Positions 19,524 through 62,601 of a stretch of DNA of 64,000 nucleotides are shown in pieces. Both the position numbers and the translations under genes were made by a program. How positions within the stretch are numbered: the first letter of the stretch is position 1; every line of letters begins with the position of its first letter. The stretch lies in the NCBI GenBank assembly GCA_016188965.1, contig JACPGT010000002.1:327991-391990 (forward strand), written 5' to 3'. The DNA is from Microcaldota archaeon. Lineage in GTDB: Archaea > Micrarchaeota > Micrarchaeia > Norongarragalinales > Norongarragalinaceae. The notes beneath the pieces are model-generated. The model was not told the origin of the DNA. It searched no databases and saw only the letters and a program-made list of their open reading frames with translations.

Positions 19524-19707
19524 ATGCATGTCGGTTTTGTTGGTTTGGGTCGCATGGGTAAGCACATGGTCTTGCGTGGTCGCCCCGGGGGAATGACTTC
19601 CCCCTGGCCCGCCCTGGGCCTCGCCCCCTTCGTGAAGTTTGGAGCTGATTAGGATGCACGTTGGTTTTGTTGGTTTGGGTCGCATGGGTAAGCACATGGT
19701 CTTGCGT
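19524..19707 (+). repeat. Duplicated gnd 5' end flanking a 76-nt hairpin-containing insert (element A)
   Basis: The first 54 nt of gnd occur twice, at 19524-19577 and 19654-19707. They differ at two positions, both synonymous (CAT/CAC, GTC/GTT). Between them, 19578-19653 starts GGTCGCCCC and contains the hairpin GGGGG-AATGACTT-CCCCC and GC-rich arms. The upstream copy reads into a 42-codon dead-end frame ending TAG; the downstream copy is the intact gene. On the reverse strand the insert aligns with element B at both GGGGCGAGGCC and GGGGCGACC. See the element-family finding. Confidence 0.85.
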
Positions 19708-20613
19708 TTAAAGGCGCAGGGTTTCCGTGTCGCGGTGTACAACCGGTCGCCTGAAAAAGTCAAGCAGATGGAAGAAAACGGCGTCTCCGGCGCTTACAGT
19801 CTCAAGGAACTCGTCCAGAAGCTGGACGCGCCCCGTGTCGTGTGGCTCATGGTTCCGCAGGGACCCACGGTGGATGAGATGTTGGATGGCATCGTTCCTT
19901 TTCTTTCACAAGGCGACGTCGTAGTGGACGGCGGCAATAGTTACTACAAGGACTCCGTCCGCCGCGCCGCGCAACTGAAGGCTAAGGGCCTTCATTACTT
20001 GGACGTCGGCACCAGCGGTGGTTTGGGCGGCGAGAGGCACGGGTATTGCTTCATGGCCGGCGGAGAGCCCAAGGCCTACGCCGCGGTCGAGCCGGTGCTC
20101 AAGGTCCTGGCCGCTCCGGGCGGCTACGGCTTGTTCGGTCCTTCCGGCGCCGGGCACTTCGTCAAGATGGTGCACAACGGCATCGAGTATGCGTTGCTTC
20201 AAAGCTACGGCGAAGGGTTTGAACTTTTGAAGAACGCGCCGGAATTCAAGATCGACTTGCACAAGACGGCGCACGTGTGGAACCGCGGCTCGGTCATCCG
20301 CTCCTGGTTGCTGGAGTTGGCGGAAGATGCCTTGCAGAAAGACGGCCGGCTTGAGCGAATCGGTGACTCCGTCGGCGGCGGCAGCACGGGTGAGTGGACG
20401 GTGCAGACGGGCATCGAGCAGAAGACGCCCACGCCCATGATTTCGACCGCTTTGAATGCCCGCTACCGCACGCGGCAGGCTGAAAGCTTTGCGGGCAAGA
20501 TGGTGGCCGCGTTGCGCAACGAGTTCGGCGGGCATGACGTCGTCCAGACGGACGCGGCGGCCGGTGTTGCGGTGCCGGCCAACGGCAGCAAAGCGAAAAA
20601 AGTCAAAAAATAG
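19654..20613 (+). CDS. gnd: 6-phosphogluconate dehydrogenase, short type
   Basis: A 319-residue decarboxylating 6-phosphogluconate dehydrogenase, converting 6-phosphogluconate to ribulose 5-phosphate. It has the Rossmann GFVGLGRMGKHM motif, VVDGGNSYYKDS, DVGTSGGLGGERHGYCFM (substrate Ser-Gly-Gly), and KMVHNGIEYALLQSYGEGF with the catalytic Lys and the Glu. The length matches the short GntZ/GndA class, often NAD-dependent. The start at 19654 follows directly after a duplicated copy of its own 5' end. The promoter is probably upstream of that copy (AT-rich 19430-19470), so the transcript would carry the insert as leader. Confidence 0.94.
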   Translation: MHVGFVGLGRMGKHMVLRLKAQGFRVAVYNRSPEKVKQMEENGVSGAYSLKELVQKLDAPRVVWLMVPQGPTVDEMLDGIVPFLSQGDVVVDGGNSYYKDSVRRAAQLKAKGLHYLDVGTSGGLGGERHGYCFMAGGEPKAYAAVEPVLKVLAAPGGYGLFGPSGAGHFVKMVHNGIEYALLQSYGEGFELLKNAPEFKIDLHKTAHVWNRGSVIRSWLLELAEDALQKDGRLERIGDSVGGGSTGEWTVQTGIEQKTPTPMISTALNARYRTRQAESFAGKMVAALRNEFGGHDVVQTDAAAGVAVPANGSKAKKVKK

Positions 20614-20748
20614 CCGTTTCCGCTTTCTCCTTTTTTTCTCTCTTTTTTTCGTTTTCCTTCTTTTTCCATTTTTTCGGTGCCGCTCGTCTTTGACGCGCGT
20701 GACGGCTGGGTCTACGACTACGGGGTTGGCGGGGTTTCCTCGGCGGTT

Positions 20749-21201
20749 TCAGATGGGTAGGTAGGGCCGGCCGAAGAACACGGCTGCCCACAATATCAGG
20801 GCTACGATGAAGTGGATGACGCTTTTCTTGGCGTATTCGTGCCAGATGCCTTTTCCTTGGTAGTCATTCAGCAGGCCTTGGCCTAGGTAGGTGGCCGAGA
20901 GGGCCAGGAAGACTTGGGGCAGCATCAGCAACAGGTAGGATTGCGGGACCGCGCCCGTAGTGTATAGTGAGGCGAACTTGACGCCTTCGATGCCCAACGC
21001 CAGGGGGGCGCCATAGCCGAAGAACAGCAGGCTGAAGGAAAAGACGAAGGCCAACGCCAATAGTTCGCTGACGACGTCGTTGGGCGAAAAGGCATATGGC
21101 GGAGTCAGTTGGACGGGCTCCGGCTGGATCGTGTTGTAGCCGTAGACGCCGGCAAAGGCGGCGGCCATGACGACGACGGAGAAAATCGCGATGAGTTTCA
21201 T
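20749..21201 (-). CDS. Polytopic membrane protein, possibly SpoIIM-like
   Basis: A 150-residue protein of about four membrane helices starting at the ATG at 21201 (MKLIAIFSVVVMAAAF). FSPNDVVSELLALAFVFSFSLLFFGYGAPLALGIEGVKFASLY and the final FIVALILWAAVFFGRPYL are membrane helices. The layout resembles SpoIIM/DUF95-type archaeal proteins, but I cannot confirm this. It is last in a four-gene leftward unit (23171 to 20749). Confidence 0.55.
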   Translation of the reverse strand: MKLIAIFSVVVMAAAFAGVYGYNTIQPEPVQLTPPYAFSPNDVVSELLALAFVFSFSLLFFGYGAPLALGIEGVKFASLYTTGAVPQSYLLLMLPQVFLALSATYLGQGLLNDYQGKGIWHEYAKKSVIHFIVALILWAAVFFGRPYLPI

Positions 21202-21211
21202 GGGGCTTTCA

Positions 21212-21520
21212 CTACAAATAGTAGATGTGGAGGTGGGGGATGCCTTGCACTTTCTTGACTTGTTTCGTGTCGATGTTGAGGGCTTTGCGGGCGCAGGCCA
21301 CGGCATTCGGACCCACGGCGTTGACGTTGCGCGATCCCTGCAGCAGGCCTATGGCTTCGTTTTCGGTCACTTGCATGCCTTCGTAGAACGAGCGATACTT
21401 GTCCAAATCCAACGTCACGTCGCCTTCCTTGAGCACTTTTCCGAGCAGTTTCTTGTCGCATAATGCCGTTACGTGCCAGACTTGGCCGTGGCGGTCGACG
21501 CGTTGGTGGACTTTGGCCAT
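21212..21520 (-). CDS. DUF424-family protein
   Basis: A 102-residue archaeal protein with the DUF424 pattern: N-terminal VWHVTALCDKKLLGKVLKEGDVTLDL. The central YYxG-like FYEGMQVTENEAIGLLQGSRNVNAVGPNAVACARKAL and the terminal VQGIPHLHIYYL also fit. Function of the family is unknown. The ATG at 21520 overlaps the stop of the preceding gene (TGATG), so translation is coupled. Confidence 0.8.
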   Translation of the reverse strand: MAKVHQRVDRHGQVWHVTALCDKKLLGKVLKEGDVTLDLDKYRSFYEGMQVTENEAIGLLQGSRNVNAVGPNAVACARKALNIDTKQVKKVQGIPHLHIYYL

Positions 21521-22488
21521 CACCGCCGCGTCGCCCTCCGGAGCGTTTTGGACTTCTTTTTGGATGCCGGTTTCTTGGCCGTAATGCGGGAAGGCGTGGT
21601 GGTGGATGGCTTTTCTTGGTTTTCTTTCTCTTTTCCCGTCAAAGCGGAAAAAGCGTTGGCCATGATGTGAAGCTGGACTACCTGGGCCACCATGACGCCG
21701 AACACGGCCAGGATGGCGGCGATGCCGAGCAGTGCCAGCGCGGGAAGGCTGGGCGCGTTGAGGCGCACGCGAAGCGCAAGTAACGCCAGGGCGACGATCA
21801 GGATAAGGACGGCCATGACGGCCAGCATCAAGGCGAGGGATACGACCGTTGAGACGACCAGTGCCAGGAGTACGTCGACGGGTTTTTCGCGGGCCAAATC
21901 GACGCTGCGCCGGATGGCTTCCCCCATGTTTTTTCCTTCCAGGGCCACGGCGTACTCGGCGAATGCCAGGAAGAAAGCCAACGCGAGAGAAACGGCCAGA
22001 TAGATTACAAGAACCAGGCCGGAGAACGCCGACCCGCTTTCCGCCGCGGTTTGGAAGAGCATGCTGGAGGCGAAGCTGATGCCGGAGACGACGACGGCCA
22101 CGCCCACCATTGAGCCGAGCCGCGGAGAGAACTGCGCCCAGCTCTGCGAAAGGCTTTCGGAATGCGCGGCGTTGCGGATGATGGTGCCGGTGATGGCCAG
22201 GCTGCCGACGGCGAATGCGACGACGCCGGTGATGAGCACCAGACCGACGACGCCCAACGCGGGGGGGTTGCGCAGCCACGTGGCCGGATTCGCTGTCAAA
22301 CCCGAAGCCGAGGCGGTCAGCACGGTAAGCAGGAGCACGGCCAGTGCCACGCCGATGGTGAAACTGGCGTACAGCAGCGCGGCCTTGGAATGGCGGGCGT
22401 AGGAAAAAGCGTCGTCTATGGCCTTGCCGTATTGCATATTGGGCCTTACGGTGAGGATGCTTTTAAACGGTGCGGGCTTTTGCTTCAT
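21520..22488 (-). CDS. Six-helix membrane protein with Lys-rich tail
   Basis: A 322-residue integral membrane protein with about six Ala/Val/Leu-rich helices (first at about residues 37-60, last ending near 285) and a basic Lys/Thr/Ser C-terminal tail. It resembles archaeal DUF7847-type or glycerophosphodiesterase-membrane-like proteins only in general shape. It follows the gene at 22491 closely and overlaps the DUF424 gene, so all are one operon. Confidence 0.65.
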   Translation of the reverse strand: MKQKPAPFKSILTVRPNMQYGKAIDDAFSYARHSKAALLYASFTIGVALAVLLLTVLTASASGLTANPATWLRNPPALGVVGLVLITGVVAFAVGSLAITGTIIRNAAHSESLSQSWAQFSPRLGSMVGVAVVVSGISFASSMLFQTAAESGSAFSGLVLVIYLAVSLALAFFLAFAEYAVALEGKNMGEAIRRSVDLAREKPVDVLLALVVSTVVSLALMLAVMAVLILIVALALLALRVRLNAPSLPALALLGIAAILAVFGVMVAQVVQLHIMANAFSALTGKEKENQEKPSTTTPSRITAKKPASKKKSKTLRRATRR

Positions 22489-22490
22489 GC

Positions 22491-23171
22491 CTACTTGGCG
22501 AGGCGCCGTCGTGCCTGCAGACGGGCCACGATTTGCTCGCGGTTGATGGCGGGGCCCGCGTATTTCTGCATGAAGGCGGGGGCCGTCCTGAATCCCTTGA
22601 GGGCGACGTGTTTGTGGAATTGCACGCCCCGGTCGTTTTCCTTCCTGCGTTGGATATATGGTTTATCCGTGTGCTTTTGGGCTGTGTTCAGATGCGTCAG
22701 GAACCGGCGTGCCGATTCGTTGCGGGGGTGGGCGGCCTGCCGGGACACTTTTTCAGCGTAGCGGCGCATGGTACGCAGCATCATGATGCCTTGCTGGGAT
22801 TCGCCTTGGTTCTGACTGAGTACCTTGTTCTGGACGTGTGCCAGCATCATGGTCTTGTACGCCTCGTCCGTTAGCTGGTTGGAGGCGATCTTGAACTTGG
22901 GGTCGAATTGTTGGATGATGTGGGCGATGGTCAGGCTGTCGAACACGAGGCTGGCCATGGGGATGGTCGAGGCCAAAAACGTCAGTCCGCGGTGGGCGGC
23001 AAAGCTCAAGGGCGTTTCGGCCAGGCTGCGGTTGCGCGCGGCCGCGCTTTCAGACATGCCGGCGCCGATCTTGCCTAAGACGCCGGGCCTTTTAGGAGCC
23101 AGGCGCGATTGGGTCCAACCGGCCTTCGGCTGTCTCCAGAGCATGCTGCCTTTCGTGAACAGTTTTCCCAT
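22491..23171 (-). CDS. Hypothetical basic helical protein
   Basis: A 226-residue, Arg/Lys/Gln-rich helical protein; I do not recognise it. The start at 23171 (MGKLFTKGSMLWRQ) is likely, since the frame upstream is basic and lacks a ribosome site. One weakly hydrophobic segment (RGLTFLASTIPMASLVFDSL) could be membrane-associated. First gene of the leftward operon, divergent from the cyclase gene at 23272. Confidence 0.5.
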   Translation of the reverse strand: MGKLFTKGSMLWRQPKAGWTQSRLAPKRPGVLGKIGAGMSESAAARNRSLAETPLSFAAHRGLTFLASTIPMASLVFDSLTIAHIIQQFDPKFKIASNQLTDEAYKTMMLAHVQNKVLSQNQGESQQGIMMLRTMRRYAEKVSRQAAHPRNESARRFLTHLNTAQKHTDKPYIQRRKENDRGVQFHKHVALKGFRTAPAFMQKYAGPAINREQIVARLQARRRLAK

Positions 23172-23271
23172 CGGTGGTCGGTAACCATACCATGCCATCT
23201 GGCAAATAAAAGCCGTGAGGATGGAGCGGTTTGGGCGGTGGTGCGTCGACGTTTTATAGTTGGCATCCGTA

Positions 23272-24213
23272 ATGCGCCTCATGGTGTTGACGGCTTGGCT
23301 TTCAGCCCTGCTTTTTTTCGCATTGGCGTTACTGTCCTATGCGTTTTTCCGCTCCTGGCAGGCGTACCGGCGCAGGCGCGACGGCCACCGTTTCCTCAAA
23401 GTGGCCGTGGTCTTCGTCGCGCTTTTGGGCGTCTGGCTCGAGTTGTATGGCGCGCCATTCGAGACGGTGCTGACGCAGTACCGCGTCTTGTTGGCGTTTG
23501 TCCCGCTGGTTTTGTTCTTGGCGTACGATCGGTTGGCCCCCTCCTCTTCGGTCGCAGGCCATTCTTTGGGCGGTGGGACTGACTTTTTGGAGGCATACGT
23601 CAGCCCTCACGTCGTGTCGCAGATCCGGCAGAAAGGCTACGTGACGCTGGGCGGCACGCACCGCGAAGTGACGGTGCTCGTAACCGACGTGCGCAATTCG
23701 ACCGGCATGTGCGTGACGTATCCGCCGGACGTCGTGCTCAAGTCGCTCAACCGTTATTTCGAGGTCGTCACCGACGCGGTGACGCACCACGGCGGGACGT
23801 TGGACAAGCTGACGGGCGACGGGGTGATGGCCGTGTTCAACGCGCCGCGCGATTTGCCGGATCACGCGTCCAAGGCGTATGCCGCGGCGTGCGACATCCA
23901 GCAGCGCATGGTCAAGGTCAACCACGAACTGTCCGCCGAGCATCTGCCGGTGCTGAACGTCGGCGTCGGGCTTGATTTCGGCGTGGGCGTGTTGGGCAAC
24001 ATTGGCTCCAAGCACCTGGTGCGTTATACCGTCATCGGCGACGTGGCCAATACCGCGTCGCGGATCCAGGAATTCGCCAAAGGCGGACAAGTGGCGCTGA
24101 CGCCGGCGGCGTTCCGTGCGCTGGGCGGCAGGGAAAAAGTCGATGCCAAAGGCGAGAACGTGCAGGTCAAGGGCAAAGGCATGATGACGATTTACAAGGT
24201 GTCCGTGGCATGA
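23272..24213 (+). CDS. Membrane-bound class III adenylate/guanylate cyclase
   Basis: A 313-residue protein: two membrane helices (about 5-28 and 42-60, plus a third 66-82), then a class III nucleotidyl cyclase domain. The two metal-binding Asp residues are in TVLVTDVRNSTGM (about 139) and DKLTGDGVMAVF (about 183); the Lys of DKLTGDG is a base-recognising position. GDVANTASRIQE matches the GD-x-VN-x-AAR motif with Asn and Arg for ribose and transition state. All catalytic positions appear present, so it should make cAMP or cGMP. TTTTATA sits about 20 nt before the ATG at 23272. Class III cyclases are uncommon in archaea. Confidence 0.9.
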   Translation: MRLMVLTAWLSALLFFALALLSYAFFRSWQAYRRRRDGHRFLKVAVVFVALLGVWLELYGAPFETVLTQYRVLLAFVPLVLFLAYDRLAPSSSVAGHSLGGGTDFLEAYVSPHVVSQIRQKGYVTLGGTHREVTVLVTDVRNSTGMCVTYPPDVVLKSLNRYFEVVTDAVTHHGGTLDKLTGDGVMAVFNAPRDLPDHASKAYAAACDIQQRMVKVNHELSAEHLPVLNVGVGLDFGVGVLGNIGSKHLVRYTVIGDVANTASRIQEFAKGGQVALTPAAFRALGGREKVDAKGENVQVKGKGMMTIYKVSVA

Positions 24214-24719
24214 GGCGTATCCGGCTTCCGGAGGAATTTTCGCTGCCGCGCGTGCTGGACGGTCCATCGGCGTTGGCGCTCTTTGCCGCGTCAGCGACGT
24301 TGCTGGCATGGATGCCCATGGCGTTTTCCGTTGAGGGCTTCGCGGTCCGGTTCTTCCTGGCCGTGGTGGGGTTGGCCGCGGTCTTGGCTTCGGTGTGGCT
24401 GGTCCTCCAATTGTTCAAGTCGCGCATCGCGTGGAGCTGGTTCTTTGCGCCCGTTTTGGGCAACTTGATGCTGGCTTTGGCGGCGGCGTTGGTCCTGCGC
24501 GCCTTAGCCGTCCTTCTGGAAGCCGCGTTGCGCTTTTCGGTTTTGTCCCACGTAGTCTTCTCGCTGACGCCGTTGGTTGTCCTGGTTACGTTCGGCTGGA
24601 CCGTGGAAAAATCCACCCAGCTTCCTGAACGACCGGCCGCTTGGATAGGCTGGACGTCGGTCGTCCTGTTGGCCGTGGCGTTGTACGCCGTCGACCATTT
24701 CGCGCCGCTTTGGAGTTGA
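24210..24719 (+). CDS. Membrane protein coupled to the cyclase
   Basis: A 169-residue polytopic protein whose ATG overlaps the cyclase stop (ATGA). It has about four to five hydrophobic helices (residues about 22-40, 45-65, 75-108, 115-140, 148-165). No family signature. Translational coupling suggests a sensor or membrane partner of the cyclase; that is inference. Confidence 0.6.
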   Translation: MRRIRLPEEFSLPRVLDGPSALALFAASATLLAWMPMAFSVEGFAVRFFLAVVGLAAVLASVWLVLQLFKSRIAWSWFFAPVLGNLMLALAAALVLRALAVLLEAALRFSVLSHVVFSLTPLVVLVTFGWTVEKSTQLPERPAAWIGWTSVVLLAVALYAVDHFAPLWS

Positions 24720-24828
24720 TTTTTTTGAGTGGTTCTTTCGGCTTCTTTCATTTCCGGAGGGGTACTTTTTTTCCCAGTCTTGCAAGGCTTTTTATGCCCC
24801 TTTCGCAGATGTATGGGTTTGAGTGCCG

Positions 24829-25500
24829 ATGATTGAACCTGCTCCGATCCATTATGACCGCATTTACCGCTTTGCCGAGGGACGCGTGCGGGGTGAGTTG
24901 AAGACCAAACTTCCGACCGGCCTGTATTACCACCGGCCTTTCCATACGCGTGACGTGGTCCGGGTGGCCGAACGCATTGGCGAAATGGCGAGAAAACGCG
25001 GCGCTTTGACGGAACGTGAAGTGTGGCTGCTCAAGCTGGCCGCGCTTTACCACGACGTGGGTTTCACGCATCAAGTCAAGGAAAACGAGCCGTTCGGAGC
25101 CCAATGCGCCGTCGGTGAGTTGGGGCAGTTAGGCTTGAGTTCGGAGGACCTGGAATTGGTCGCAGCCGCGATATTGGATACGGCGTTGGTCCGCCATCCG
25201 CGTCCTGATTTGGAAACCTATCATCAGGCCCCGCAGACCAAATTGGGCAAGTACTTGTGCGATGCGGACTTGGCAACGCTTGGCCGCAAGGATTTCTTCA
25301 AGACCAACGAATGGTACCGCCGTGAACACAATCATCCGTTGCCCACCCAGGAGCATCTCAGCGAGGAGGAAAACCTCCGGCGGGTCCATCCGTTCCTGTT
25401 GGGCCATCGGTGGCACACGCGCGAGGCCGAGTCGCTCTTCGAGGAGACTAAAAAGCAGAACATCCGGGAACTACGACGGCGCCTGGGTTTGCTGGTTTGA
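24829..25500 (+). CDS. HD-domain phosphohydrolase
   Basis: A 223-residue soluble HD-superfamily hydrolase. Metal ligands are visible: the first His in YYHRPFHTRDVV, HD in AALYHDVGF (about residues 73-74), a following His in FTHQV, and Asp in LCDADLATLG (about 145). This form resembles stand-alone HD proteins that are found near class III cyclases in bacteria, so a cyclic-nucleotide phosphodiesterase is plausible but unproven. A GCTTTTTATG element 30-40 nt upstream is the likely TATA box. ATG 24829 is used. Confidence 0.8.
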   Translation: MIEPAPIHYDRIYRFAEGRVRGELKTKLPTGLYYHRPFHTRDVVRVAERIGEMARKRGALTEREVWLLKLAALYHDVGFTHQVKENEPFGAQCAVGELGQLGLSSEDLELVAAAILDTALVRHPRPDLETYHQAPQTKLGKYLCDADLATLGRKDFFKTNEWYRREHNHPLPTQEHLSEEENLRRVHPFLLGHRWHTREAESLFEETKKQNIRELRRRLGLLV

Positions 25501-25552
25501 TTCACGTTCCGGCCTCTTTCGGCCGGTGGATTCTTGGGTCTGTTCGTATACC

Positions 25553-27682
25553 TTACGGCGCGGGCCGGAGGGGTTCTTCCTCTTTTATTTCCAACAGGAC
25601 GTTGGGGTTGGGTGGTTTGACTTCTACGTCCCGCGTGATTTTGCGTTTGGATAGGTGCGGCCACCAGTCCTTGACGTAATTCGTGCCGTGCGTGACGACG
25701 CGGAGGGGGTTGAATCGTTCGGTCTTCCGTTCAGGCGCGGGCAACTCGTCGTCTTCGATTTTCGGATATATTTCCCGCAGGTCTTTCTCGGTGATGTGTT
25801 GAAGCACTTCGGCCACTTCCGGGTCGAAGTGTCCGGTCCAGAAGCCTTGCTGTAGCCAGCCGGGCTTCCATTCGCCGCTTTGCTCGTCGTGCGTGCCGGC
25901 GAGGAATTCCCAGGACAATTGGCGCTTGCCCATGGGCATGTCTCGGGTCAACCTGCCTTTGCGCAGTTGCGGTAGCCAGGCTTTCAGGTATTGGACGCCT
26001 TCGGTGAATACTTTTCGTGCTTCGAATTTTTCGGCGGCGTGGTCAATGCGGCGGGGGTACGGCCGGTCCAGGATGAACGCGTCCAAGATGTCGGCCAGGG
26101 CCGCGATTCTAGCTTCGATGGGAATCTGCTCTCCCTTGAGTTTTTTCGGATAGCCTTTGCCGTCGAATCGTTCATGGTGGTATAAGGCCACGTTCTGCAT
26201 CGTTCTTGGGAATCGGTTTTCGGCCAGGACTTCTTCCGCGTGTTCGGGGTGTCGTTGGATTTGTTCGCGTTCGCCGATGTCCAGGACGCCTTCTTTGTGA
26301 AGCAGTTCCGTTGCGATGCCGATCTTGCCTAAGTCGTGCACGTCGCCGGCTTCCTGCAGCCCGTTGATGAATTCGCGGCTGAACCGGCTTTCTCCGGTCT
26401 TTTTTCGGTGGAGCCGGTCCATGATGAGCGCGATTTTCTTCATCCATTTTCCGACGCGTTCCGAGTGGTGGCGCGTGTAGGGGTCGTGGTCTTCCAGTTG
26501 CTTGATGCGTGATTTGACGTTGATTTTCGCTTGGTGATCCAGCTGTTCGGTGAACCAGTTCTGCACGATGCGGTCGTTGATGTCCCGGTCTTGCAGTATT
26601 TCCTGGAATTTGAGGGCGAGTTGGCGCGGGATCTTGTCCAGATGGATGGCATGCACGGCGGCGACATGGTTTTCCGGCAGCAGCAATTTGTGCTCGAACT
26701 GCCGTCGGAGGTCCGGCGTGATGATGCCCAGCGGAACGATGAGTTCGCCGAATGGCGCGGTGGGTCCTTCCCCGGGCTTGGCCAAGTGTTCGTCGACCAT
26801 TTTGCTCCGGTTATCGTCTTCGTGGAGGTTGGCCGTGAAGGAAAATCCCGATTTGCCTTCTTCGTTGAGTCCGCCGTTCCACCATCGGACTATCCGTTTG
26901 GTCGAATCCGTCAAGGGCATGACTGGCAGGTGTTGGACCCGGCGGCCCCAGGGCGCTTCAGGCCCGGCTTCGGCTTTGTATTCCACGAGATCCGTCCGCA
27001 TGTCCGTTCCTCGAGGTGATTTCATCGGATCCGGCGAGGTTTGCATGGCTAACGCCACGGTGCCGCGCACGTGGGCCCCTGCTTCCTTCTGTTTTTGGGT
27101 GAATGCCACTTCGGGAAGGAGGCGGGCGAGCAATTGCATCAGGGGGTAGGCGGAACGGCCAGGGTCGGATTCGCCGCGGATTGCCTCCTTGAGTTGGTGC
27201 AAGTCATGTGCGCTTGGAAGCAGGGTCGTGTTCCGTTGGATGAGGTCTTGGGCGATGCGTTTGGCATTCAAGTCGCGTGACGAGTCCAGCACTAAGGGAC
27301 TGACACGGTATTGCTCTGCCAACCTTTCGATTTCAGCTTTTTGGCCGTCCGTCAAGTCTCCGCGTATGATGATGTTTTGGCCCCATCCGCCGCGGTGTCC
27401 ATCCTTTACTCCGGTTCCTTCGATGGCGTGGTCCATCATTTCCCGTATTTTCTTGGCGCTGAACCGGTTGTGTTCGTCGAAATGCAGTTCGATGGCCTTC
27501 ACGCCGGTTTCGTACTTCCAGTTCCTTGAAATCTCGGCGGCAATGCGACTCGCGTTTTGTTGGGATTTCGGGTTCGGTTCATGGAGGACCGTCAAACTGA
27601 GCCGGTTGGCCATCCGGCCGAAGCTTCCGGCCACCATTTTTGTGGGCAGGAAACCGGGTGGGGTCCTTTCTTCGGCGGGCAT
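25553..27682 (-). CDS. Large protein with HD-GYP-like domain
   Basis: A 709-residue soluble protein. Residues 1-390 are a unique N-terminal region of unknown fold. Residues about 400-550 form an HD-GYP domain: DPYTRHHSERVGKW, GDVHDLGKIGI (HD pair about 448), HPEHAEEVL and YHHERFDGKGYPKKLKGEQIPIEA with the GYP motif (about 506), then ALADILDAF. HD-GYP proteins in bacteria hydrolyse c-di-GMP or cGAMP. No GGDEF synthase is seen in the window, so the substrate is uncertain. The C-terminal 100 residues repeat a Lys/Trp/Leu segment (YLKAWLPQLRKGRLTRD and YVKDWWPHLSKRKITRD). Confidence 0.8.
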   Translation of the reverse strand: MPAEERTPPGFLPTKMVAGSFGRMANRLSLTVLHEPNPKSQQNASRIAAEISRNWKYETGVKAIELHFDEHNRFSAKKIREMMDHAIEGTGVKDGHRGGWGQNIIIRGDLTDGQKAEIERLAEQYRVSPLVLDSSRDLNAKRIAQDLIQRNTTLLPSAHDLHQLKEAIRGESDPGRSAYPLMQLLARLLPEVAFTQKQKEAGAHVRGTVALAMQTSPDPMKSPRGTDMRTDLVEYKAEAGPEAPWGRRVQHLPVMPLTDSTKRIVRWWNGGLNEEGKSGFSFTANLHEDDNRSKMVDEHLAKPGEGPTAPFGELIVPLGIITPDLRRQFEHKLLLPENHVAAVHAIHLDKIPRQLALKFQEILQDRDINDRIVQNWFTEQLDHQAKINVKSRIKQLEDHDPYTRHHSERVGKWMKKIALIMDRLHRKKTGESRFSREFINGLQEAGDVHDLGKIGIATELLHKEGVLDIGEREQIQRHPEHAEEVLAENRFPRTMQNVALYHHERFDGKGYPKKLKGEQIPIEARIAALADILDAFILDRPYPRRIDHAAEKFEARKVFTEGVQYLKAWLPQLRKGRLTRDMPMGKRQLSWEFLAGTHDEQSGEWKPGWLQQGFWTGHFDPEVAEVLQHITEKDLREIYPKIEDDELPAPERKTERFNPLRVVTHGTNYVKDWWPHLSKRKITRDVEVKPPNPNVLLEIKEEEPLRPAP

Positions 27683-41162: not shown

Positions 41163-41168
41163 CGGGAC

Positions 41169-56538: not shown

Positions 56539-56901
56539 ATGGGTATCTTGTCGGGTCTGACCAAGTCACTGGGCATCCAGAGCGAAATGAACATGGACGA
56601 ATTCATGTCCGCCGCCGAAGCCGAAGAAGTCGACGTCATGCACAAAGCCGCGGACTTCTATGTCAAGCCCATCGCCTTGCAGAACGACAGCGACGCGCTC
56701 ATCGTCGAGGAAGAACTCAAGGCCCGCAACCTGGTCTTGCTGAACATCTCGCCCATGGCCCGCAACCCGACGCGCCTCAAGACGATCGTACAGAAACTCA
56801 AGTCGTTCACCGTCGCGGACAACGGAGACATGGCCCGCATCGACGAAGACAAGATCCTGCTCACGCCGGCCAACGTCAAGATCGTCAAGAGACGCAAGTA
56901 A
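56539..56901 (+). CDS. sepF: Cell-division protein SepF
   Basis: A 120-residue archaeal SepF, the membrane anchor for FtsZ. The first 13 residues (MGILSGLTKSLGI) form an amphipathic membrane-targeting helix. The core domain has YVKPIAL, LKARNLVLLNISPMA and TIVQKLKSFTVADNGDMARIDEDKILLTPANVKIV, the SepF beta-alpha fold. AGGTGA precedes the ATG at 56539; a GTG at 56527 is in frame. TTTATAAAT about 60 nt before the ATG is the TATA box. Two ftsZ genes lie 3 kb away. Confidence 0.93.
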   Translation: MGILSGLTKSLGIQSEMNMDEFMSAAEAEEVDVMHKAADFYVKPIALQNDSDALIVEEELKARNLVLLNISPMARNPTRLKTIVQKLKSFTVADNGDMARIDEDKILLTPANVKIVKRRK

Positions 56902-57049
56902 TTCTTTTGCTTAATCCTTTGGCCCGTTTGGGCTTTTGTTTTTTTCTTCCGTCAGCCCCGGCTTGGCGTCCGTATTCGGCAATGAATTGAAAAAGGCCAC
57001 ACCTATCTATTTTAGGTATGTTTATATATCTAAAAACAATAATTATTCC

Positions 57050-57310
57050 ATGCAAGCCAATGAATCACACTCGCCGCGTCTGGCCACGGTTCTCATGGTG
57101 GAAAAAACGCTTTCAGACGCCGGACAGGTCGTCAAAGTCGCCGAACTGAAGCGCCGCTTGCCGAAACAAATCATGCACGCGACGCTGATGCACATCCTAG
57201 ACTACTTGCAACAAAGCGGCAAGATACTTTTCACTTCAAAAGGCGTATTGTGGATTTACCGGCCTCCGGCGGAGTTAGAAAACCTCAAAGCCAACGGCTT
57301 GGAACTGTAG
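57050..57310 (+). CDS. Small winged-helix protein, possible antitoxin
   Basis: An 86-residue protein. VAELKRRLPKQIMHATLMHILDYLQQSGKILFTSKGVLWIYRPP is a winged helix with a recognition helix and a wing strand. TTTATATATCTAAA lies about 30 nt upstream and a palindrome ACCTA-N7-TAGGT (57001-57017) overlaps it. The next gene 62 nt downstream encodes a RelE-like protein with its own TATA-like box. The two may be a toxin-antitoxin pair with separate promoters. Confidence 0.55.
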   Translation: MQANESHSPRLATVLMVEKTLSDAGQVVKVAELKRRLPKQIMHATLMHILDYLQQSGKILFTSKGVLWIYRPPAELENLKANGLEL

Positions 57311-57371
57311 CGAACTTCACCGGCCAGCAACCCTCCGGACGCTTTTAAGCGACACTGCTGGATTCCATTTC

Positions 57372-57737
57372 ATGCACGATCGCATGGTGCGGGTCATCCT
57401 CAAAGGCCAGGCCAAGGAGGAATTCGAACGGCTGAACCGCGTCGTGGGCGAACAGCAAGAACGCGGCGTTGCCACTTCGGAAGAAATGCAATTGCTCAAA
57501 TCAATCCTGCAGAAGACTGCATTGATCAAGGAAAATCCGATGTATGGAGACAACATTTCCAAGAAACTGATTCCGAAAGACTTGGCGGTTTCCAACTTGT
57601 TCTGCGTGGACTTGACGCATTATTGGCGGATGCTCTACTCGTTGGAAGGAAACCAAATCGAGGTCGTCGCCTTCGTTCTTCACCTGCTTGACCATCCGGC
57701 GTATGACCGGTTGTTCGGCTATCGGAAAAGACGCTGA
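57372..57737 (+). CDS. RelE/ParE-superfamily toxin-like protein
   Basis: A 121-residue protein with the RelE-like order: N-terminal VRVILKGQAKEEFERLNR strand-helix, a helix LLKSILQKTALIKENPMYG, and a C-terminal sheet NLFCVDLTHYWRMLYSLEGNQIEVVAFVLHLLDHPAYDRLFGY. W-R-M-L-Y and the His/Tyr tail are typical of archaeal RelE-like families. TTTTAAGCG about 30 nt before the ATG suggests its own leaderless transcript. It would cleave mRNA on the ribosome if active; that is not shown. Confidence 0.65.
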   Translation: MHDRMVRVILKGQAKEEFERLNRVVGEQQERGVATSEEMQLLKSILQKTALIKENPMYGDNISKKLIPKDLAVSNLFCVDLTHYWRMLYSLEGNQIEVVAFVLHLLDHPAYDRLFGYRKRR

Positions 57738-57811
57738 ACCCATTACCTCCGAGGCGGGCCGGAAAGAAAGCTATAAAAGAAGTCAGGCCATAAGTCATCT
57801 GACCAATTTGT

Positions 57812-57926
57812 GGGCTCGTAGGTCAACGGTACACTCTTATTCTCAGTTTTTACCGGTGAATCGAGTGCGTGAAAGACTGCCTCCATGGCATGGAGGAGGT
57901 TACGGGTTCAAATCCCGTCGAGTCCA
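57812..57926 (+). tRNA. tRNA-Ala(GGC) with a 43-nt intron in the D-loop
   Basis: The acceptor stem GGGCTCG/CGAGTCC has the G3-U70 pair that marks tRNA-Ala, with discriminator A. The anticodon loop ATGGCAT gives anticodon GGC on stem CCTCC/GGAGG. The T arm is ACGGG-TTCAAAT-CCCGT. The D arm GGTC...GACT is interrupted by 57831-57873. This forms a bulge-helix-bulge: inner CACTC/GAGTG, GTA bulge, central ACG/CGT with one A-G mismatch, and AAA bulge. Cutting after the second bulge base gives the normal D-loop AACGGTA. Confidence 0.93.
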
Positions 57927-58104
57927 CTCTTTTTTTTTACCCTGCCTAGTGGAGCCTTGATTTCAAACCCATTAGGCCTGACTTTTTTCTAATTCGAGGG
58001 GCGAGGCCGCTGAGCGTAGCGATGGTCGTCCGCCGACCATCGCTTGCAACCGTTGCGGGACAGGGGACGCTTCCCCGGGGCGACCGTCGAGTCCACTCTT
58101 TTTT
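57915..58104 (+). repeat. Duplicated tRNA-Ala 3' end flanking a 148-nt insert (element B)
   Basis: The 21-nt end of tRNA-Ala with following Ts (57915-57935) is repeated exactly at 58084-58104. The insert between includes an 11-bp stem AGCGATGGTCG/CGACCATCGCT, a GGGG-ACGCTT-CCCC hairpin (58063-58076) and GGGGCGACC at the junction with the distal copy. The reverse complement of element A matches GGGGCGAGGCC and the last 30 nt with few changes. No integrase is encoded. Confidence 0.85.
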
Positions 58105-58207
58105 CTCCTTTTCCAGCGTGCGCTCGGTGCGTTTGTTTTCCGCAAAGCCATTTATTCTCGAGTTTTGAAAGCACTGTTTCCGACTTTCAACTTCAGGTGG
58201 TTTGAAC

Positions 58208-58936
58208 ATGACGAAACTGCTGTGCCTCGATGATTCGTATCTAACGGTATGCTCGGCCAAAGTCACGGCCGTTGATGCCGCCGCCAACCGCGTCCAGTTG
58301 GACCAAACTGTTTTTTACCCCACCGGCGGCGGGGTTCCGTGCGATTTCGGCACGCTTTCGGCCAACGGGACCGCGTGGAAGGTCACCGATGTCCACAAGA
58401 AAGACGGCGCGGTTTGGCACGTCTTGGACTCCGCTTTCGGCCCGTTGGGGCTCAAAGTAGGCGAAGCTGTTTCCGCGAAAATTGACTGGGACCGGCGGTA
58501 CAAACTCATCCGCATGCATACGGCCACGCACGTGTTCGCGTCCATGATGCATAATCGTGGCTTCGGAATTACCGGCAACCAAATCGGCACGGACCAGACG
58601 CGCGTGGACTTCAATTGCGAGACGGGCGCCGAAAAGGAGGCGTTGGAGGCCGGCGTGGTGGCGGCCAACGAGCAACTCAAGCAATCCGTCGAACTCAAGG
58701 TTTATTCGTTGCCCCGCGATGAGGCGTTGAAGATGCCGGGAATGGTCAAATTGGCCAACGTCCTGCCTCCGGCCGTCACGGAACTGCGCATCGTCGAGAT
58801 TCCGGGCATCGACACCCAGGCTGACGGCGGCTGCCACGTCAAGAACGTCAACGAAATCGGCCAAATCAAGCTTGAACGCGTGGAAAATAAGGGAGCGAAG
58901 AACAAGCGGGTGTATTTTTCCCTCGCAACACCTTGA
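58208..58936 (+). CDS. alaX: AlaX-type alanyl-tRNA editing protein
   Basis: A 242-residue trans-editing enzyme clearing Ser/Gly from mischarged tRNA-Ala. FYPTGGGVPCDFG (Gly motif), LIRMHTATHVFASMM (HxxxH zinc ligands), and DTQADGGCHVKNVNEIGQI (Cys and His ligands) are all present. GGTGG precedes ATG 58208. It lies just after tRNA-Ala and element B. Its last codons are altered by element C: without the insert the frame would read ...NKRVYFSLFAATV before a stop, instead of ...NKRVYFSLATP. Confidence 0.92.
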   Translation: MTKLLCLDDSYLTVCSAKVTAVDAAANRVQLDQTVFYPTGGGVPCDFGTLSANGTAWKVTDVHKKDGAVWHVLDSAFGPLGLKVGEAVSAKIDWDRRYKLIRMHTATHVFASMMHNRGFGITGNQIGTDQTRVDFNCETGAEKEALEAGVVAANEQLKQSVELKVYSLPRDEALKMPGMVKLANVLPPAVTELRIVEIPGIDTQADGGCHVKNVNEIGQIKLERVENKGAKNKRVYFSLATP

Positions 58937-59031
58937 TTTGTATCTGTTGAGGGGGAATCCGGAGGAGCGTGAAACTGAAGGGGGACGCTTCCCCCTGCGG
59001 TTCCGGTGGAGAACAAGCGGGTGTATTTTTC
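58899..59031 (+). repeat. Duplicated alaX 3' end flanking an 89-nt insert (element C)
   Basis: A 22-nt sequence from the end of alaX (58899-58920) is repeated exactly at 59010-59031. The 89-nt insert contains the hairpin GGGGG-ACGCTT-CCCCC (58980-58995), the same hairpin type as in elements A and B, followed by TGCGGTTCC as in element D (CTGCGGTTC). The duplicated copy plus the sequence after it appears to be the original gene end. Confidence 0.85.
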
Positions 59032-59042
59032 TCTTTTTGCCG

Positions 59043-59414
59043 CTACGGTTTGACGGCGAAGCTGTCGTTTGGACCGACATGCCCTTCGCGTTTGAGGTGG
59101 AACGCAACTGACATCAACAATTCAGTCATTTTTTCGTCTTCTTCGAACGCCGGTGGCAGGTGGCGGAGTGCAAGCTCGATGACGTGCTGTTGTTTAATCT
59201 TCTTGGCCGTCACTTTTTCTGCGTAATGTTCGAACAGCGTCCGTTGCACGTTTTTCCTTTCCGTTGGTTTGACTGGTTTCTCTTTTTCCAGCGAGTGGGC
59301 GACTGCACGGGCAAATGCCGTCTTCAAACCTTCCCCGGAAGCTGCTCTGGAATGCGCTACGTTGAGTTGTACTGTTCCGGAAACTCGGTTGAATTGAAGT
59401 TCGAACGCGCTCAT
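59043..59414 (-). CDS. Hypothetical helical protein
   Basis: A 123-residue soluble protein starting at ATG 59414 (MSAFELQFNRVSGTVQLNVAHSRAASG). It is basic and helical; a central segment TERKNVQRTLFEHYAEKVTAKKIKQQHVIELALRHLPP is likely coiled or helix-bundle. The frame is open upstream but low in coding character. No family. Its stop lies 12 nt beyond the element C repeat copy. Confidence 0.5.
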   Translation of the reverse strand: MSAFELQFNRVSGTVQLNVAHSRAASGEGLKTAFARAVAHSLEKEKPVKPTERKNVQRTLFEHYAEKVTAKKIKQQHVIELALRHLPPAFEEDEKMTELLMSVAFHLKREGHVGPNDSFAVKP

Positions 59415-59705
59415 GGACAACCACCGATGAAGGTTATTTCGGAAGTTAAGGCTTCCGCTGTGCAATCGTAAAAAAGGGAATAATGCCGGAAGAAAAGGAG
59501 CCGGAACCGGTGATGAACACCACGGATGCGCGGAAAGCCAGGGGCGATCCAGTGCGCGAAAAGGTGGGTGTTCCAATCCCGGCTCCTCCTTCCGACTCTC
59601 TTGCCAGCGAACCCGTCGGAGAGACTGGAGGCTGGAAGAAGGGGGGAAACCCGCAGCGGACACAATCCAACTACGGGGTTTTTGGGGGGTTGGGTTTTTT
59701 CCAGC
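59415..59705. other. Region between two leftward genes, with a tRNA-like stem
   Basis: 291 bp with no convincing gene. GGAGCCGG (59497-59504) pairs with CCGGCTCC (59579-59586), enclosing GGTG-atgaa-CACC and smaller stems: a 90-nt cloverleaf-like outline, but without conserved tRNA bases. CCGAC/GTCGG pair further right. A Gly-rich G tract (59640-59700) ends the region. Confidence 0.35.
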
Positions 59706-60779
59706 TTAGAACTGGATGGAATCCAGCCCGTAGGCTTCGCGTTTGCCTTCCTTTTTCTGGGTGCCCACCACGTGCGGCGACGTCACGCCCGTGACGATGC
59801 TCATGACTTGCAGTTTGTCACCCATTTCCGGCAATATGCGCGCGCCCCACTTGACGTAGGCGTTCGGGTCGAAGTTTTCGGTGATGCCTTCGCCCACCTT
59901 GATGGCTTCGCCCAGCGTTAGCTGGTTGCCGCCTTGGACCAACACTAATGCTCCCTTGGAGCCGGCGTAGTCGACGTCCAGCAAGGGGTGTTCCAGCGTG
60001 TTCTTGACGACTTCTTCGACTTTGCCTTGTCCTTGGGCTTCGCCCACGGAAATCATGGCGACGCCGGCGTTGCCCATGATCATGCGCAAGTCCGCAAAGT
60101 CGATGTTCATCAAGCTCGGCAGCATGATGGTGTCCGCGATTCCCTTGACGGAGCGGGCGACCAGCGTGTCAGCCACTGCGAATGCCTGGTTCATCGGCAG
60201 GTTCGGCACGTACGAGACGAGGCGGTTGTTGTCGATGATGACCGTCGTGTCCGAAGCCTTCGACAAGGCATCCAAGCCCCAGTCGGCCTTCTCCAAGCGC
60301 GCGCGTTCCAACGAGAACGGATACGTCACCATGGAGACGACGATGGCGCCTTGTTGTTTGGCGACTTCGGCAATGACCGGAGCGGCACCGGTGCCGGTTC
60401 CGCCGCCCATGCCGGCGCAAATGAATACGAGTTCGGAGTCCTTCAATAGGTCCGCAAAGCGGTCGCGGGCCTGTTCGGCGCACTTCATGCCGACTTCGGG
60501 AAAGCCGCCGGCGCCCAGGCCGCGGGTCATCTGTCCGCCAATCAGTAGGCGGCGGTTGGCGTCCACCATCTTGAGGTGGTTCTGGTCCGTGTTGACCGCA
60601 ATGGTCTCGGCGCTCTGGATGCCCATCTTGGTTAGGCGGGAAACGGTGTTCGTTCCGGCGCCGCCGACTCCGACGACGCTGATCTTAATCGAGCTTGAGC
60701 CGAAGTCCTTGCTTTCCAAGGTGCTTTGGGCGTGTGCGTTGCTACTGGTTTTCAGGGCATCTGCCAACAGACTTTGCAT
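59706..60779 (-). CDS. ftsZ: FtsZ cell-division GTPase (copy 1)
   Basis: A 357-residue tubulin-like GTPase. VVGVGGAGTNTVSRL, the tubulin signature GMGGGTGTGAAPVI, and NIDFADLRMIM with the catalytic Asp (T7 loop) are present. NTDQNHLKM and HPLLDVDYAG segments resemble archaeal FtsZ2, so I lean to that subtype. The N-terminal 25 residues are a flexible tail and the C-terminus is short. It lies 134 nt downstream of the other ftsZ, same strand. It forms the division ring with SepF. Confidence 0.93.
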   Translation of the reverse strand: MQSLLADALKTSSNAHAQSTLESKDFGSSSIKISVVGVGGAGTNTVSRLTKMGIQSAETIAVNTDQNHLKMVDANRRLLIGGQMTRGLGAGGFPEVGMKCAEQARDRFADLLKDSELVFICAGMGGGTGTGAAPVIAEVAKQQGAIVVSMVTYPFSLERARLEKADWGLDALSKASDTTVIIDNNRLVSYVPNLPMNQAFAVADTLVARSVKGIADTIMLPSLMNIDFADLRMIMGNAGVAMISVGEAQGQGKVEEVVKNTLEHPLLDVDYAGSKGALVLVQGGNQLTLGEAIKVGEGITENFDPNAYVKWGARILPEMGDKLQVMSIVTGVTSPHVVGTQKKEGKREAYGLDSIQF

Positions 60780-60913
60780 TCTCTACCATCTCCGACGGGT
60801 TTTTTCACTGGTCGACTTTTTCGGGGAAAGGGGGTTAGTCTTCCGCCCGTATTGGGGTTATCCGGCCGCAAAAGACAAAACGGCCTTCATCCAAAAAATG
60901 ATCGTTTCGGCGT

Positions 60914-61978
60914 TTAGCCGATGATTTCGATGTCGTAGCCGGGGTGCCGTTCGGCCTTGGCTTCCTTTTCAGTCTTGCCCATGATGTGCGGCGACTTGAC
61001 GCCGGTCACGATGGCCGTGATTTCCAGCTTGCCGTCGTAGTCCGGCATGAGACGCGCGCCCCATTTGACGGACGCGTTGGGGTCCATCTGTTCGGTGACC
61101 ATTTCACCGGCCTTGATGGCGTCGCCCAAGGTCAGGTCATTGCCGCCGGCGATGTGAATCAGGGCGCCGGAGGCTCCGGCGAAGTCCACGTCCAGCAGGC
61201 GGTTCTTCAAGACGCCTTCCACAGCGTCCTCGACCTTGTTCGTTCCCTTGCCCGAGCCGACGGCAATCATGCCGACGTCGCCCGCGGACATGACGGCGCG
61301 GACGTCCGCGAAGTCGATGTTGACCAACGAAGGCTGGGTGATGGTGAATACCAGGCCGCCGATGGCTTTGGCCAGGATTTCGTCCGCAACCAGGAAGGCT
61401 TGGTTCATGGGCAGGTTGGGCACCAGTTGCACCAGGCGGTTGTTGTCCAGGATGATGACGGAATCCGAGCATTCGCGCAGGCGGTTGATGCCTTCCTCGG
61501 CCTTCTTCACGCGGGCGCGCTCAAGGGCGAAGGGGTAGGTGACCATGGAGACGACGATGGCGCCTTGGTCTTTCGCAATCTGGGCGATGACGGGTGCGGC
61601 ACCGGTGCCGGTTCCGCCGCCCATGCCGGCGCAGACGAAGACTAGGTGGGTGCCTGCGAAAATCTGTTCCAAGGCGGGGCGGTCGACTTCGGCGCATTTC
61701 ATGCCGACTTCGGGAAAGCCACCAGCGCCCAGGCCTTTGGTGACGGACTTGCCGATGAGCAGTTTGCGGATGGATTCGTCCAGCAGGTTCAGGTGTTGGC
61801 GGTCGGTGTTGCAGGCGATCAGTTCGGCGCCCTTGACGTTGAGGCGCTTGAGGCGGTTGACGGTGTTGTTACCACCGCCGCCGACTCCGACCACGCAAAT
61901 CTTGATTTCTTCCGAGCCATTGTCGTTCTGCGGTGCATTGCGCTGTCCTGCAATGGCGTTCTTGACCAAATCTTCCAT
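60914..61978 (-). CDS. ftsZ: FtsZ cell-division GTPase (copy 2)
   Basis: A 354-residue FtsZ. VVGVGGGGNNTVNRL, GMGGGTGTGAAPVI and NIDFADVRAVM (catalytic Asp) are intact. It differs from the neighbour mainly in the N-terminus (MEDLVKNAIAGQ) and the HIAGGNDLTLGDAI region. About half of the residues are shared with copy 1, so the pair is old. TTTATATA upstream (about 62030 on this strand) is the promoter. Subtype FtsZ1 versus FtsZ2 cannot be settled without a tree. Confidence 0.93.
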   Translation of the reverse strand: MEDLVKNAIAGQRNAPQNDNGSEEIKICVVGVGGGGNNTVNRLKRLNVKGAELIACNTDRQHLNLLDESIRKLLIGKSVTKGLGAGGFPEVGMKCAEVDRPALEQIFAGTHLVFVCAGMGGGTGTGAAPVIAQIAKDQGAIVVSMVTYPFALERARVKKAEEGINRLRECSDSVIILDNNRLVQLVPNLPMNQAFLVADEILAKAIGGLVFTITQPSLVNIDFADVRAVMSAGDVGMIAVGSGKGTNKVEDAVEGVLKNRLLDVDFAGASGALIHIAGGNDLTLGDAIKAGEMVTEQMDPNASVKWGARLMPDYDGKLEITAIVTGVKSPHIMGKTEKEAKAERHPGYDIEIIG

Positions 61979-62481
61979 TTTTTAATCGCCCCTTGTTTTA
62001 AAAAGAAACGCAATGACGATTCGGGGGCTATATAAATACCTTTGCCAGGGCGACGATTTGGAGCGTATTCAAGCTTTAAACGGATGATTGCAGGCCTTAT
62101 GCTGCTGCATTTGTATTTTTAATCGTTTTTTAGCCATTATTTTCTGGTTTTAAGGTTTTTTGTGCCACCTTTTGCCTAAAGGTAAATTTCATTTCGATAA
62201 AAAAAACCGGTTATTAGTCCTCTGATTACGTTTTTGAGCATTTTTTAGTGTTTTTTTTACAATTTATGGCGTTTTGAACCTTGAAATCGTCTTTTCCAGC
62301 GTTCTCCGTACTTTTTGCCTTATGATTTTTTTTTAGGTAAATGGGGCTCTTACGGCCTTTTTTTCCTTTTTATCGGTTCTATACTACCTCTTTTTTGATT
62401 TCTGCCTTTTTTGTTCCTTTTTTTTAAATTTAATGTACCTATTTGGCTTCAATTCCTCTTCTTTTTTTGGTCTTTTTTTCT
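61979..62481. other. AT-rich, plus-strand T-rich intergenic region
   Basis: 500 bp upstream of ftsZ and downstream of the ligase, with no gene found. The plus strand is heavy in T (many runs of 6-9), giving a strong A/T strand bias in an otherwise GC-rich window. It includes the ftsZ TATA box at about 62030. The T runs are on the wrong strand to be U-tract terminators for the ligase transcript. Confidence 0.5.
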
Positions 62482-62601
62482 ATCTTTGTCGCTGCATTTC
62501 GTGCAATTCGGTCGCCTTTTCTTTCAAAAAGAAAATGCGGCCTTCCGAAAAGAAACAATATAGCCTGCGGTTCATCTTTGTCGCTGCATTTCGTGCAATT
62601 C
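62482..62601 (-). repeat. Duplicated ligase 3' end flanking a 64-nt insert (element D)
   Basis: The last 28 nt of the ligase coding region, up to part of the stop codon (62574-62601), recur exactly at 62482-62509. The 64-nt insert begins GGTCGCC at the junction with the distal copy, as in elements A and B, and ends CTGCGGTTC next to the gene, as near the end of element C. It has a small CTTTC/GAAAG stem. The insert is less GC-rich than the others. Confidence 0.8.

Follow-up and report, generated by a model that had tools for sequence, protein, structure and literature searches.

Hairpin modules flush with duplicated gene ends in a Norongarragalinaceae archaeon: a family of likely miniature mobile cassettes

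INTRODUCTION

Among the described systems closest to the inserts reported here are integrons, which occur in archaea (PMC9668308), and archaeal integrating elements with cargo, which sit at gene ends (PMC6563490, PMC8371274). The present study concerns a 64,000-nucleotide (nt) stretch of DNA, hereafter the window, from a Microcaldota archaeon of the family Norongarragalinaceae (assembly GCA_016188965.1, contig JACPGT010000002.1, positions 327,991 to 391,990 of the forward strand), in which four gene ends are present twice, each time around a short insert. We read these inserts, with confidence a little better than even, as members of a family of tiny elements built on hairpin modules, named LM and RM, that are likely mobile cassettes carrying a substitute gene end and predicted to be inserted into the gene by a site-specific recombinase.

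Like integron cassettes with their attC sites (PMC9668308), LM units would be small and mobile, with a hairpin site in which the base strands pair around a variable in-hairpin loop (∼4 to 75 nt in LM), structure is conserved above sequence and successive insertions are stacked. Unlike integron cassettes, LM units have no open reading frame (ORF) of their own and are spread over many host genes, whose ends they carry, and no attI platform was seen. The consensus of the integron attC R′′/R′ boxes is RYYYAAC/GTTRRRY, and by eye no such boxes were found in the LM tips GGTCG, CTAAG, GTAAG, GCAAG, ATAAG, CGGAT, CGAAT and GTAAT; the cassette architecture is likely integron-like, minus the sequence boxes and the platform. 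Archaeal tyrosine-integrase elements (PMC6563490, PMC8371274) resemble LM elements in gene-end direct repeats, one-sided gene rebuilding, empty sites and both 5′ and 3′ targets, whereas they carry cargo, e.g. an integrase, of which none was seen in LM elements, and differ in that a single LM module serves dozens of genes and pairs its tip with an internal loop. An earlier note on this DNA knew no named archaeal element with this layout, and a literature search likewise found no description of it in the portions of the sources available.

RESULTS

Hairpin modules lie flush with duplicated gene ends

A direct-repeat scan of the window (at least 18 nt, copies at most 400 nt apart) yielded five repeat families, the four longest of which are loci A (gnd), B (tRNA), C (alaX) and D (ligase), so that all four gene-end duplications claimed in the earlier note were recovered as the longest close direct repeats. 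The copies lie at 19524–19577 and 19654–19707 in A (54 nt, 96% identity), 57915–57935 and 58084–58104 in B (21 nt, 100%), 58899–58923 and 59010–59034 in C (25 nt, 96%), and 62482–62509 and 62574–62601 in D (28 nt, 100%). The motif GGTCGCC, which had been placed at the junction with the displaced copy in three loci, indeed adjoins it at A (19578–19584), B (58079–58085, minus strand, with a 2 nt overlap with the repeat) and D (62510–62516).

GGTCGCC turned out to be one tip of the structured module LM, which is about 50 nt long and consists, in order, of a five-base tip, then usually CCCC, a mostly GC-rich hairpin bearing the variable loop, and a second hairpin whose loop contains the complement of the tip. 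The genome under study (1.37 Mb) is denoted G000; G001 and G002 are of the same genus and G008 of the same family. For 74 distinct LM copies collected from G000, G001, G002, G008 and G006, a duplication was called flush when the sequence adjoining the module, 0–9 nt from the tip, had a second copy beyond the module with a score of at least 15, the search reaching only ∼460 nt beyond the tip. Flush duplications were found at 59 of the 74 copies; of 1000 positions drawn at random from these loci, no closer than 700 nt to any listed tip, 2 passed the rule, and with zero matches in reversed controls as well, a chance origin of the family was rejected. In these 59 copies the second copy starts 51–419 nt from the tip (median: 73), and no integrase or cargo of the element's own lies between the repeats; the duplications range from ∼16 to 112 nt.

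The module mostly abuts the displaced end directly, and the other end copy lies within a complete gene. In the window, too, one end copy at A, B, C and D belongs to an intact or rebuilt gene, in line with the earlier claim that the gene beside the insert stays intact or nearly so. Wherever they could be read, the duplicated sequences are gene ends, which, named from sequence reading rather than curated calls, comprise 5′ ends (gnd, thiI, V-ATPase D, a trpG-like gene and pilin-like genes), 3′ ends (UPF0147, lipoamide dehydrogenase, TrxB, MetK, an Lrp/AsnC gene and an S10-like gene) and tRNA 3′ ends. The design recurs in some of the RM cases listed, including locus C. No shared identity core was seen by eye at the junctions, mismatches often lying 2–7 nt away. 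Some duplications extend beyond the gene end (L045 by 12 nt; L007 by eye), and in several loci the similarity ends at a start or stop codon (L004, L009, L041). A few single gene ends have taken up more than one insertion, in a stacked arrangement: L036 has two successive LM copies at one gene with an identical 20 nt preceding each tip, and L003 has a tRNA end in three copies, the outermost being the most altered.

Several tRNA genes show further peculiarities. In L007 (∼540–870; G000 C11:578–763) an LM occupies the anticodon-loop intron position of tRNA-Ser(UGA), where the sequence reads by eye like a bulge-helix-bulge (CUUG/UAAG, GUCG/CGAC), and a second LM lies just upstream, between a displaced tRNA 5′ end and the tRNA-Ser(UGA) gene; in L260 (G008 C16:562–612) an LM sits intron-like in the anticodon loop of an apparent CAU-anticodon tRNA. 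In displaced tRNA 3′ ends, the T loop beside the module has gained or altered one or two bases (GTTG|CAAATCC, GTTCTG|AAATCC; L003, L010, L013, L015, L016, L020, L025, L032 and L035), a decayed look unlike that of the protein-gene ends. Directly after a tRNA-Leu in L279 (5169–5555; G001 C5), a 70 nt direct repeat of 80% identity has its copies 317 nt apart, on a contig that has a tyrosine recombinase. In L322 (G008 C27) the UPF0147 gene is followed by a shorter second end copy with no module, perhaps the scar of a lost cassette.

Within the order, LM matches come from one archaeal family

The earlier note had held that motifs shared at chance level would speak against an element family. The bare 7-mer is indeed at chance in the window (12 found versus 16.9 expected), whereas the extended motif GGTCGCCCCGGGG, allowing at most one mismatch, turns up 22 times in G000 (1.37 Mb) and not once in the reversed control. 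With the LM covariance model R1 (E ≤ 1), 27, 14, 10 and 26 matches were obtained in G000, G001, G002 and G008, respectively, and the second module, RM, which ends in CGGTTCCGG, gave 19, 15, 18 and 10 covariance-model matches in the same genomes. Among 295 genomes of the class, 5 contained R1 matches at E ≤ 1e-4; a broader LM model, R3, run at E ≤ 1e-3 on 29 genomes from the order, had matches in 6, all of one family (G000, 26 matches; G001, 13; G002, 9; G008, 20; G006, 2; G005, 1). At the gathering score, no Rfam family matched a module in the window or in 20 loci, which gave three tRNA matches and one 5S rRNA match.

An assembly artefact was judged unlikely, the same design occurring in independently assembled genomes, including JACQQD and JACROM. 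LM-pattern matches in five viral contigs were set aside for lacking the second hairpin by eye, and those in bacteria were taken as chance and not checked singly, among the matches listed being mostly one per genome, with Lamprocystis (two records) and Silvanigrellales (three) as exceptions among those listed. Within the family, the long LM or RM loops of L002, L003, L021, L022 and L225 hold recurring hairpins, e.g. GACGGTC..GACCGTC with GCAACC flanks, looking like modules within modules, and three RM matches of G008 (C29:17115, C77:14042 and C132:7127) have identical scores, perhaps from a recent burst or a repeated region.

Empty sites in relatives indicate a native displaced end at four loci

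Twelve genes, each chosen for an element in at least one of the four genomes G000, G001, G002 and G008, were surveyed by eye, and their sites were read as 19 occupied, 24 empty, 2 ambiguous and 3 unreadable, so the same genes with no insert were found in sister species. For nine occupied/empty pairs, the outer flanks of both end copies were compared with the empty site against 200 shuffles. At gnd, thiI, UPF0147 and the S10-like gene, the outer flank of the displaced copy scored above every one of the shuffles, and that of the rebuilt copy did not; at gnd, the upstream flank of the displaced copy scored 26 against the empty G002 site, while the shuffles reached at most 15.5. It follows from these flank matches, at four of the nine pairs, that the displaced end would be the native one and the end in use the newcomer wherever this can be told, locus D excepted. 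The repeated gene end, rebuilt gene and empty site in a relative that mark an integrated element were therefore all found, and the relatives support the proposal of the earlier note that a miniature, non-autonomous integrating element carries the gene-end copy, locus D fitting less well.

By eye, the thiI insertion lies at the same point in G000, G001 and G008, with G002 being empty, and an AFI(A/S)A gene has a common insertion point in G000 and G008; the UPF0147 insertion points of G000 and G001 are one codon apart.

Substitute ends are often recoded and may be translationally coupled

The end copies of 42 protein loci (573 codons; tRNA loci and loci with unclear frames left out) differ at codon positions 1, 2 and 3 by 55, 28 and 134 changes, respectively, and 127 of the differing codons are synonymous versus 54 nonsynonymous. 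The nonsynonymous share is 30%, as against 81% for random changes (minimum 72% in 1000 runs), and a few apparently misassigned frames were kept (L044, L036 at 1500, L227, L255 at 1600, and L006), a bias running against the synonymous excess. At L030 (G008), 12 of 23 codons differ with zero amino-acid changes. In TrxB of G002 the initial 68 nt are identical and all 10 differences fall in the final 31 nt, the displaced tail resembling the native G000 tail. The synonymous excess, L030 and TrxB argue against plain duplication followed by free decay and fit an end from a related lineage, so that the substitute end would often be a recoded homologue rather than a plain duplicate; other end-copy pairs are identical or nearly so, and for them plain duplicates are possible. 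Neutral decay of the displaced protein-gene copies was rejected on the synonymous excess, although displaced tRNA ends do look decayed.

These comparisons bear on the alternative that survives best, and which we nevertheless consider unlikely, namely a miniature transposon producing long target-site duplications of variable length, with selection retaining only the gene-rebuilding insertions. Variable repeat lengths would be natural to it, several repeats are perfect or nearly so (25/25, 29/29, 28/28 and 52/54), and the repeats of L045 and L007 run past the gene end. Against it stand diverged pairs that differ mainly synonymously although one copy has no gene, the loci in which the similarity goes no further than a start or stop codon (L004, L009 and L041 again), and the confinement of all differences in TrxB of G002 to the final 31 nt. 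Miniature inverted-repeat transposable elements (MITEs) are, like the LM elements, short, proteinless, repeated and flanked by direct repeats, whereas the LM duplications of ∼16–112 nt are often recoded, and no terminal inverted repeats are evident by eye in single-module copies. Identical copies followed by free decay, as expected of MITEs, were not found among the diverged protein-gene pairs, young pairs being compatible with them.

Reading frames were followed in 17 five-prime loci with both starts placeable. The frame of the displaced start is open through the module in all 17, and ends at a stop codon at most 11 nt from the new start in 14; the other two frames had such a stop in 6 of 34 cases. 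This clustering of displaced-frame stops within 11 nt of the new start suggests translational coupling of the displaced start and the rebuilt gene. In the remaining three the displaced frame continues into the gene in register; two of these loci are pilin-like, and the leader would be cut off. At L006 and L022 (G000) and L254 (G008), translation from the displaced start would run through LM in frame into the rebuilt gene, which at L006 and L022 gives a longer leader before an RGQGTFEY motif. The same coupling test on displaced 3′ ends gave no consistent pattern (22 loci, 4 of them unresolved).

The tip of LM covaries with the loop of the second hairpin

Tip and loop were compared in 80 regular-expression matches in a fixed register, 39 with the tip GGTCG and 41 with other tips. 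In 36 of the 39 GGTCG copies the loop is complementary at four or more of the five bases. After 18 of the 41 other matches had been excluded by eye as register artefacts or chance, 21 of the 23 kept are perfect tip–loop complements and 2 match at four of five bases, the seven non-GGTCG tips named above all occurring with perfect complements. In an alignment of 17 hand-chosen copies, 96.6% of the tip–loop cells pair, both sides have changed in all five pairs, and 48 cells are compensatory versus 14.7 in shuffles (0 of 500 shuffles as high). The stem enclosing the loop covaries too, so LM can fold either as a pseudoknot or into one or the other of two hairpins. The dinucleotide immediately outside the tip is AC in 24 of the 80 matches, artefacts included, versus a background of 5.3%.

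The order of guide, hairpin and tip, with a covarying tip, resembles the pairing of cleavage site and guide generally known from the IS200/IS605 family and from repetitive extragenic palindromic (REP)-type ends, with which LM shares a subterminal hairpin and a tip complementary to, and paired with, an internal guide beside it. That the modules are ends of such a single-strand transposon, moved by a Y1 HUH transposase, is nevertheless an explanation to which we give only a small chance. The LM elements have gene-end duplications, which this family is known not to make, and searches for enzymes, covering 11 family genomes of which four are element-rich (G000, G001, G002 and G008), gave no Y1 transposase match (PF01797, E ≤ 0.01) in these four, which are 71–90% complete.

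A tyrosine recombinase is the best candidate enzyme

Reverse transcriptase (RVT_1), as expected of a retroelement such as a group II intron or a short interspersed element (SINE)-like unit, was found in none of the 11 family genomes at E ≤ 0.01. Tyrosine recombinases scored above the cut-off in all four element-rich genomes, the sole family of the four searched to do so. Similar proteins of ∼380–440 aa, judged by eye, are encoded in G000, G001 (two), G002, G008 and G004, all except that of G002 with a CxxC..CxxC stretch near the C-terminus. Both G000 recombinases match archaeal XerA best among the NCBIfam families (the longer one with 102 bits, cut-off 220), and the nearest structures are XerC-like, XerD and XerA; neither of the two is an IntI above the NCBIfam cut-off, the integron integrase family scoring 42 bits (cut-off 265). 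Judged by presence, an Xer-type tyrosine recombinase would be the best candidate enzyme.

The targets, which comprise tRNA 3′ ends, protein-gene 3′ ends and an AsnC/Lrp-type gene, are of the kind used by archaeal integrases (PMC6563490, PMC8371274), and would suit scars of large integrated elements, viruses or plasmids, that lost their interior and left attachment sites with a terminal hairpin. We find this improbable, given that the second copy begins a median of 73 nt from the tip in the 59 flush copies (51–419 nt within the ∼460 nt searched), that the module is the same throughout and that no long version was seen. Least probable of all is RNA-guided homing, with the module as a pseudoknot RNA scaffold, the flush gene segment as guide and the rebuilt end as a recoded, resistant copy in the manner of cleave-and-rescue: pseudoknot-type covariation right beside a gene-matching segment, recoded rebuilt ends and TnpB-like matches in G002 and G008 would suit it, but the PF07282 nuclease scored above the cut-off only in G002, G003 and G008 and thus in neither G000 nor G001 (no IscB search made), the rebuilt copy is often identical to the module-proximal segment and would be cut too (L004, L008, L009 and L175), and the module also lies at tRNA copies. 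Each of the other known classes compared fails, or leaves open, at least one tested feature.

Organization of the four loci in the window

At locus A (plus strand), the repeat scan places the displaced native 5′ end of gnd, beginning with the start codon, at 19524–19577; its two differences from the other copy in 54 nt are both synonymous. It is followed by LM at 19578–19631 (covariance model, 74 bits, E 7.2e-12), with the tip GGTCG, a GC hairpin, the anti-tip and the second hairpin, and by a spacer at 19632–19653, in which, by frame analysis (L004), the stop codon of the displaced frame begins 4 nt ahead of the new start. The rebuilt gnd gene, 6-phosphogluconate dehydrogenase-like, spans 19654–20613 according to the ORF list and orthologues, with its name taken from the earlier note and from reading.

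At locus B, an intact intron-containing tRNA-Ala gene lies at 57812–57926 (plus strand; limits and identity by eye), for which ARAGORN made no call and Rfam no match at the gathering score. The 3′ end copy of this intact gene is at 57915–57935 (plus, repeat scan), an LM with an extended second hairpin at 57995–58085 (minus; pattern match, limits by eye; L005), and, directly abutting the tip of this LM, the displaced tRNA 3′ end at 58086–58104 (plus; sequence reading and repeat scan).

Locus C (plus strand) carries, by sequence reading and repeat scan, an end copy at 58899–58923 within the intact alaX gene, ending …YFSLATP*, and the displaced alaX end at 59010–59034, which continues …SLFAATV* versus …SLFK* for the alaX end in G002. 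Between them, RM occupies 58949–59010 as an internal-loop hairpin with the end CGGTTCCGG (covariance model, 71.7 bits, E 5.4e-14).

Locus D comprises the outer copy of the ligase 3′ end at 62482–62509 (minus, repeat scan) and the end copy at 62574–62601 (minus; ORF list and repeat scan) within an intact DNA ligase gene (ORF 62572–63978, minus; name from the earlier note). Between them lie an LM-like hairpin, GGTCGC/GCGGCC with an AT-rich stem, at 62510–62542 (plus), and CTGCGGTTC, resembling the RM end, at 62565–62573 (plus; sequence reading). The core of the hairpin, GGTCGC-TTTTCTTTC..AAAGAAAA-GCGGCC, has the same plan as LM with a different stem (fold z −4.0) and matched neither covariance model R1 nor R2. 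As had been claimed, C and D both carry the RM-end-like CTGCGGTTC, but the strong RM match is in C only, with no RM model match at this place in D. The D insert aligns weakly with the ligase 3′ flank of G002 (score 20), versus 10 for the displaced flank (maximum 17.5 when the G002 flank was shuffled 200 times and aligned with the displaced flank); because of this alignment, locus D is perhaps atypical, or its insert may include a captured flank.

DISCUSSION

In the proposed mechanism, the cassette would travel between related cells as a small circle or a single strand and take along the end of the gene in which it last resided. At a position x of the homologous gene in the new host, recombination with the hairpin tip, presumably by an Xer/integron-type tyrosine recombinase acting on the fold, would leave the order gene body|substitute end-module|native end. 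Whether this would amount to a categorically new kind of proteinless mobile DNA, whose boundary is read by tip–loop pairing, so that tips are swappable, and which survives in essential genes via a recoded, translation-coupled replacement end, we regard as evenly balanced.

A number of observations weigh against the inserts being mobile cassettes placed by such a recombinase. On the side of the elements, 15 of the 74 LM copies have no flush duplication, some of them looking decayed by eye and two being tRNA introns; in 35 of the 39 copies with the tip GGTCG, only four of the five tip bases match the loop; at TrxB, lipoamide dehydrogenase, Lrp and atpD neither flank is distinctive, and at the ligase (D) it is the flank of the rebuilt copy that matches the empty site, weakly. 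The insertion points in atpD and the trpG-like gene clearly differ between species, which a fixed attachment site would not predict. On the side of the enzyme, the tyrosine recombinase resembles housekeeping XerA, and its gene is found ∼6 kb away from thiI in G000 as well as in G002, which suggests vertical inheritance; G004 has a similar recombinase and zero LM matches, and G005 has one LM match, with no flush duplication, and no PF00589 match. The earlier note had proposed a search for an integrase gene with a matching att site; in eight stretches around tyrosine recombinase genes, no module lies nearer than ∼6 kb. An autonomous copy, an excised circle and a module-adjacent recombinase gene were all not found, the search being one that would miss inserts past ∼460 nt. 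A duplex circle of 100–250 bp is small for ordinary integrases.

If the inserts are such cassettes, a mobile element would live safely inside dozens of important genes, in their conserved coding ends and with no gene of its own, by providing a spare end, which would explain how insertions are tolerated in compact genomes. It would be a natural case of rescue through a recoded copy, and would use a short, swappable recombination site whose boundary is fixed by base pairing. Gene-end direct repeats in such genomes may then mark movement between related species.

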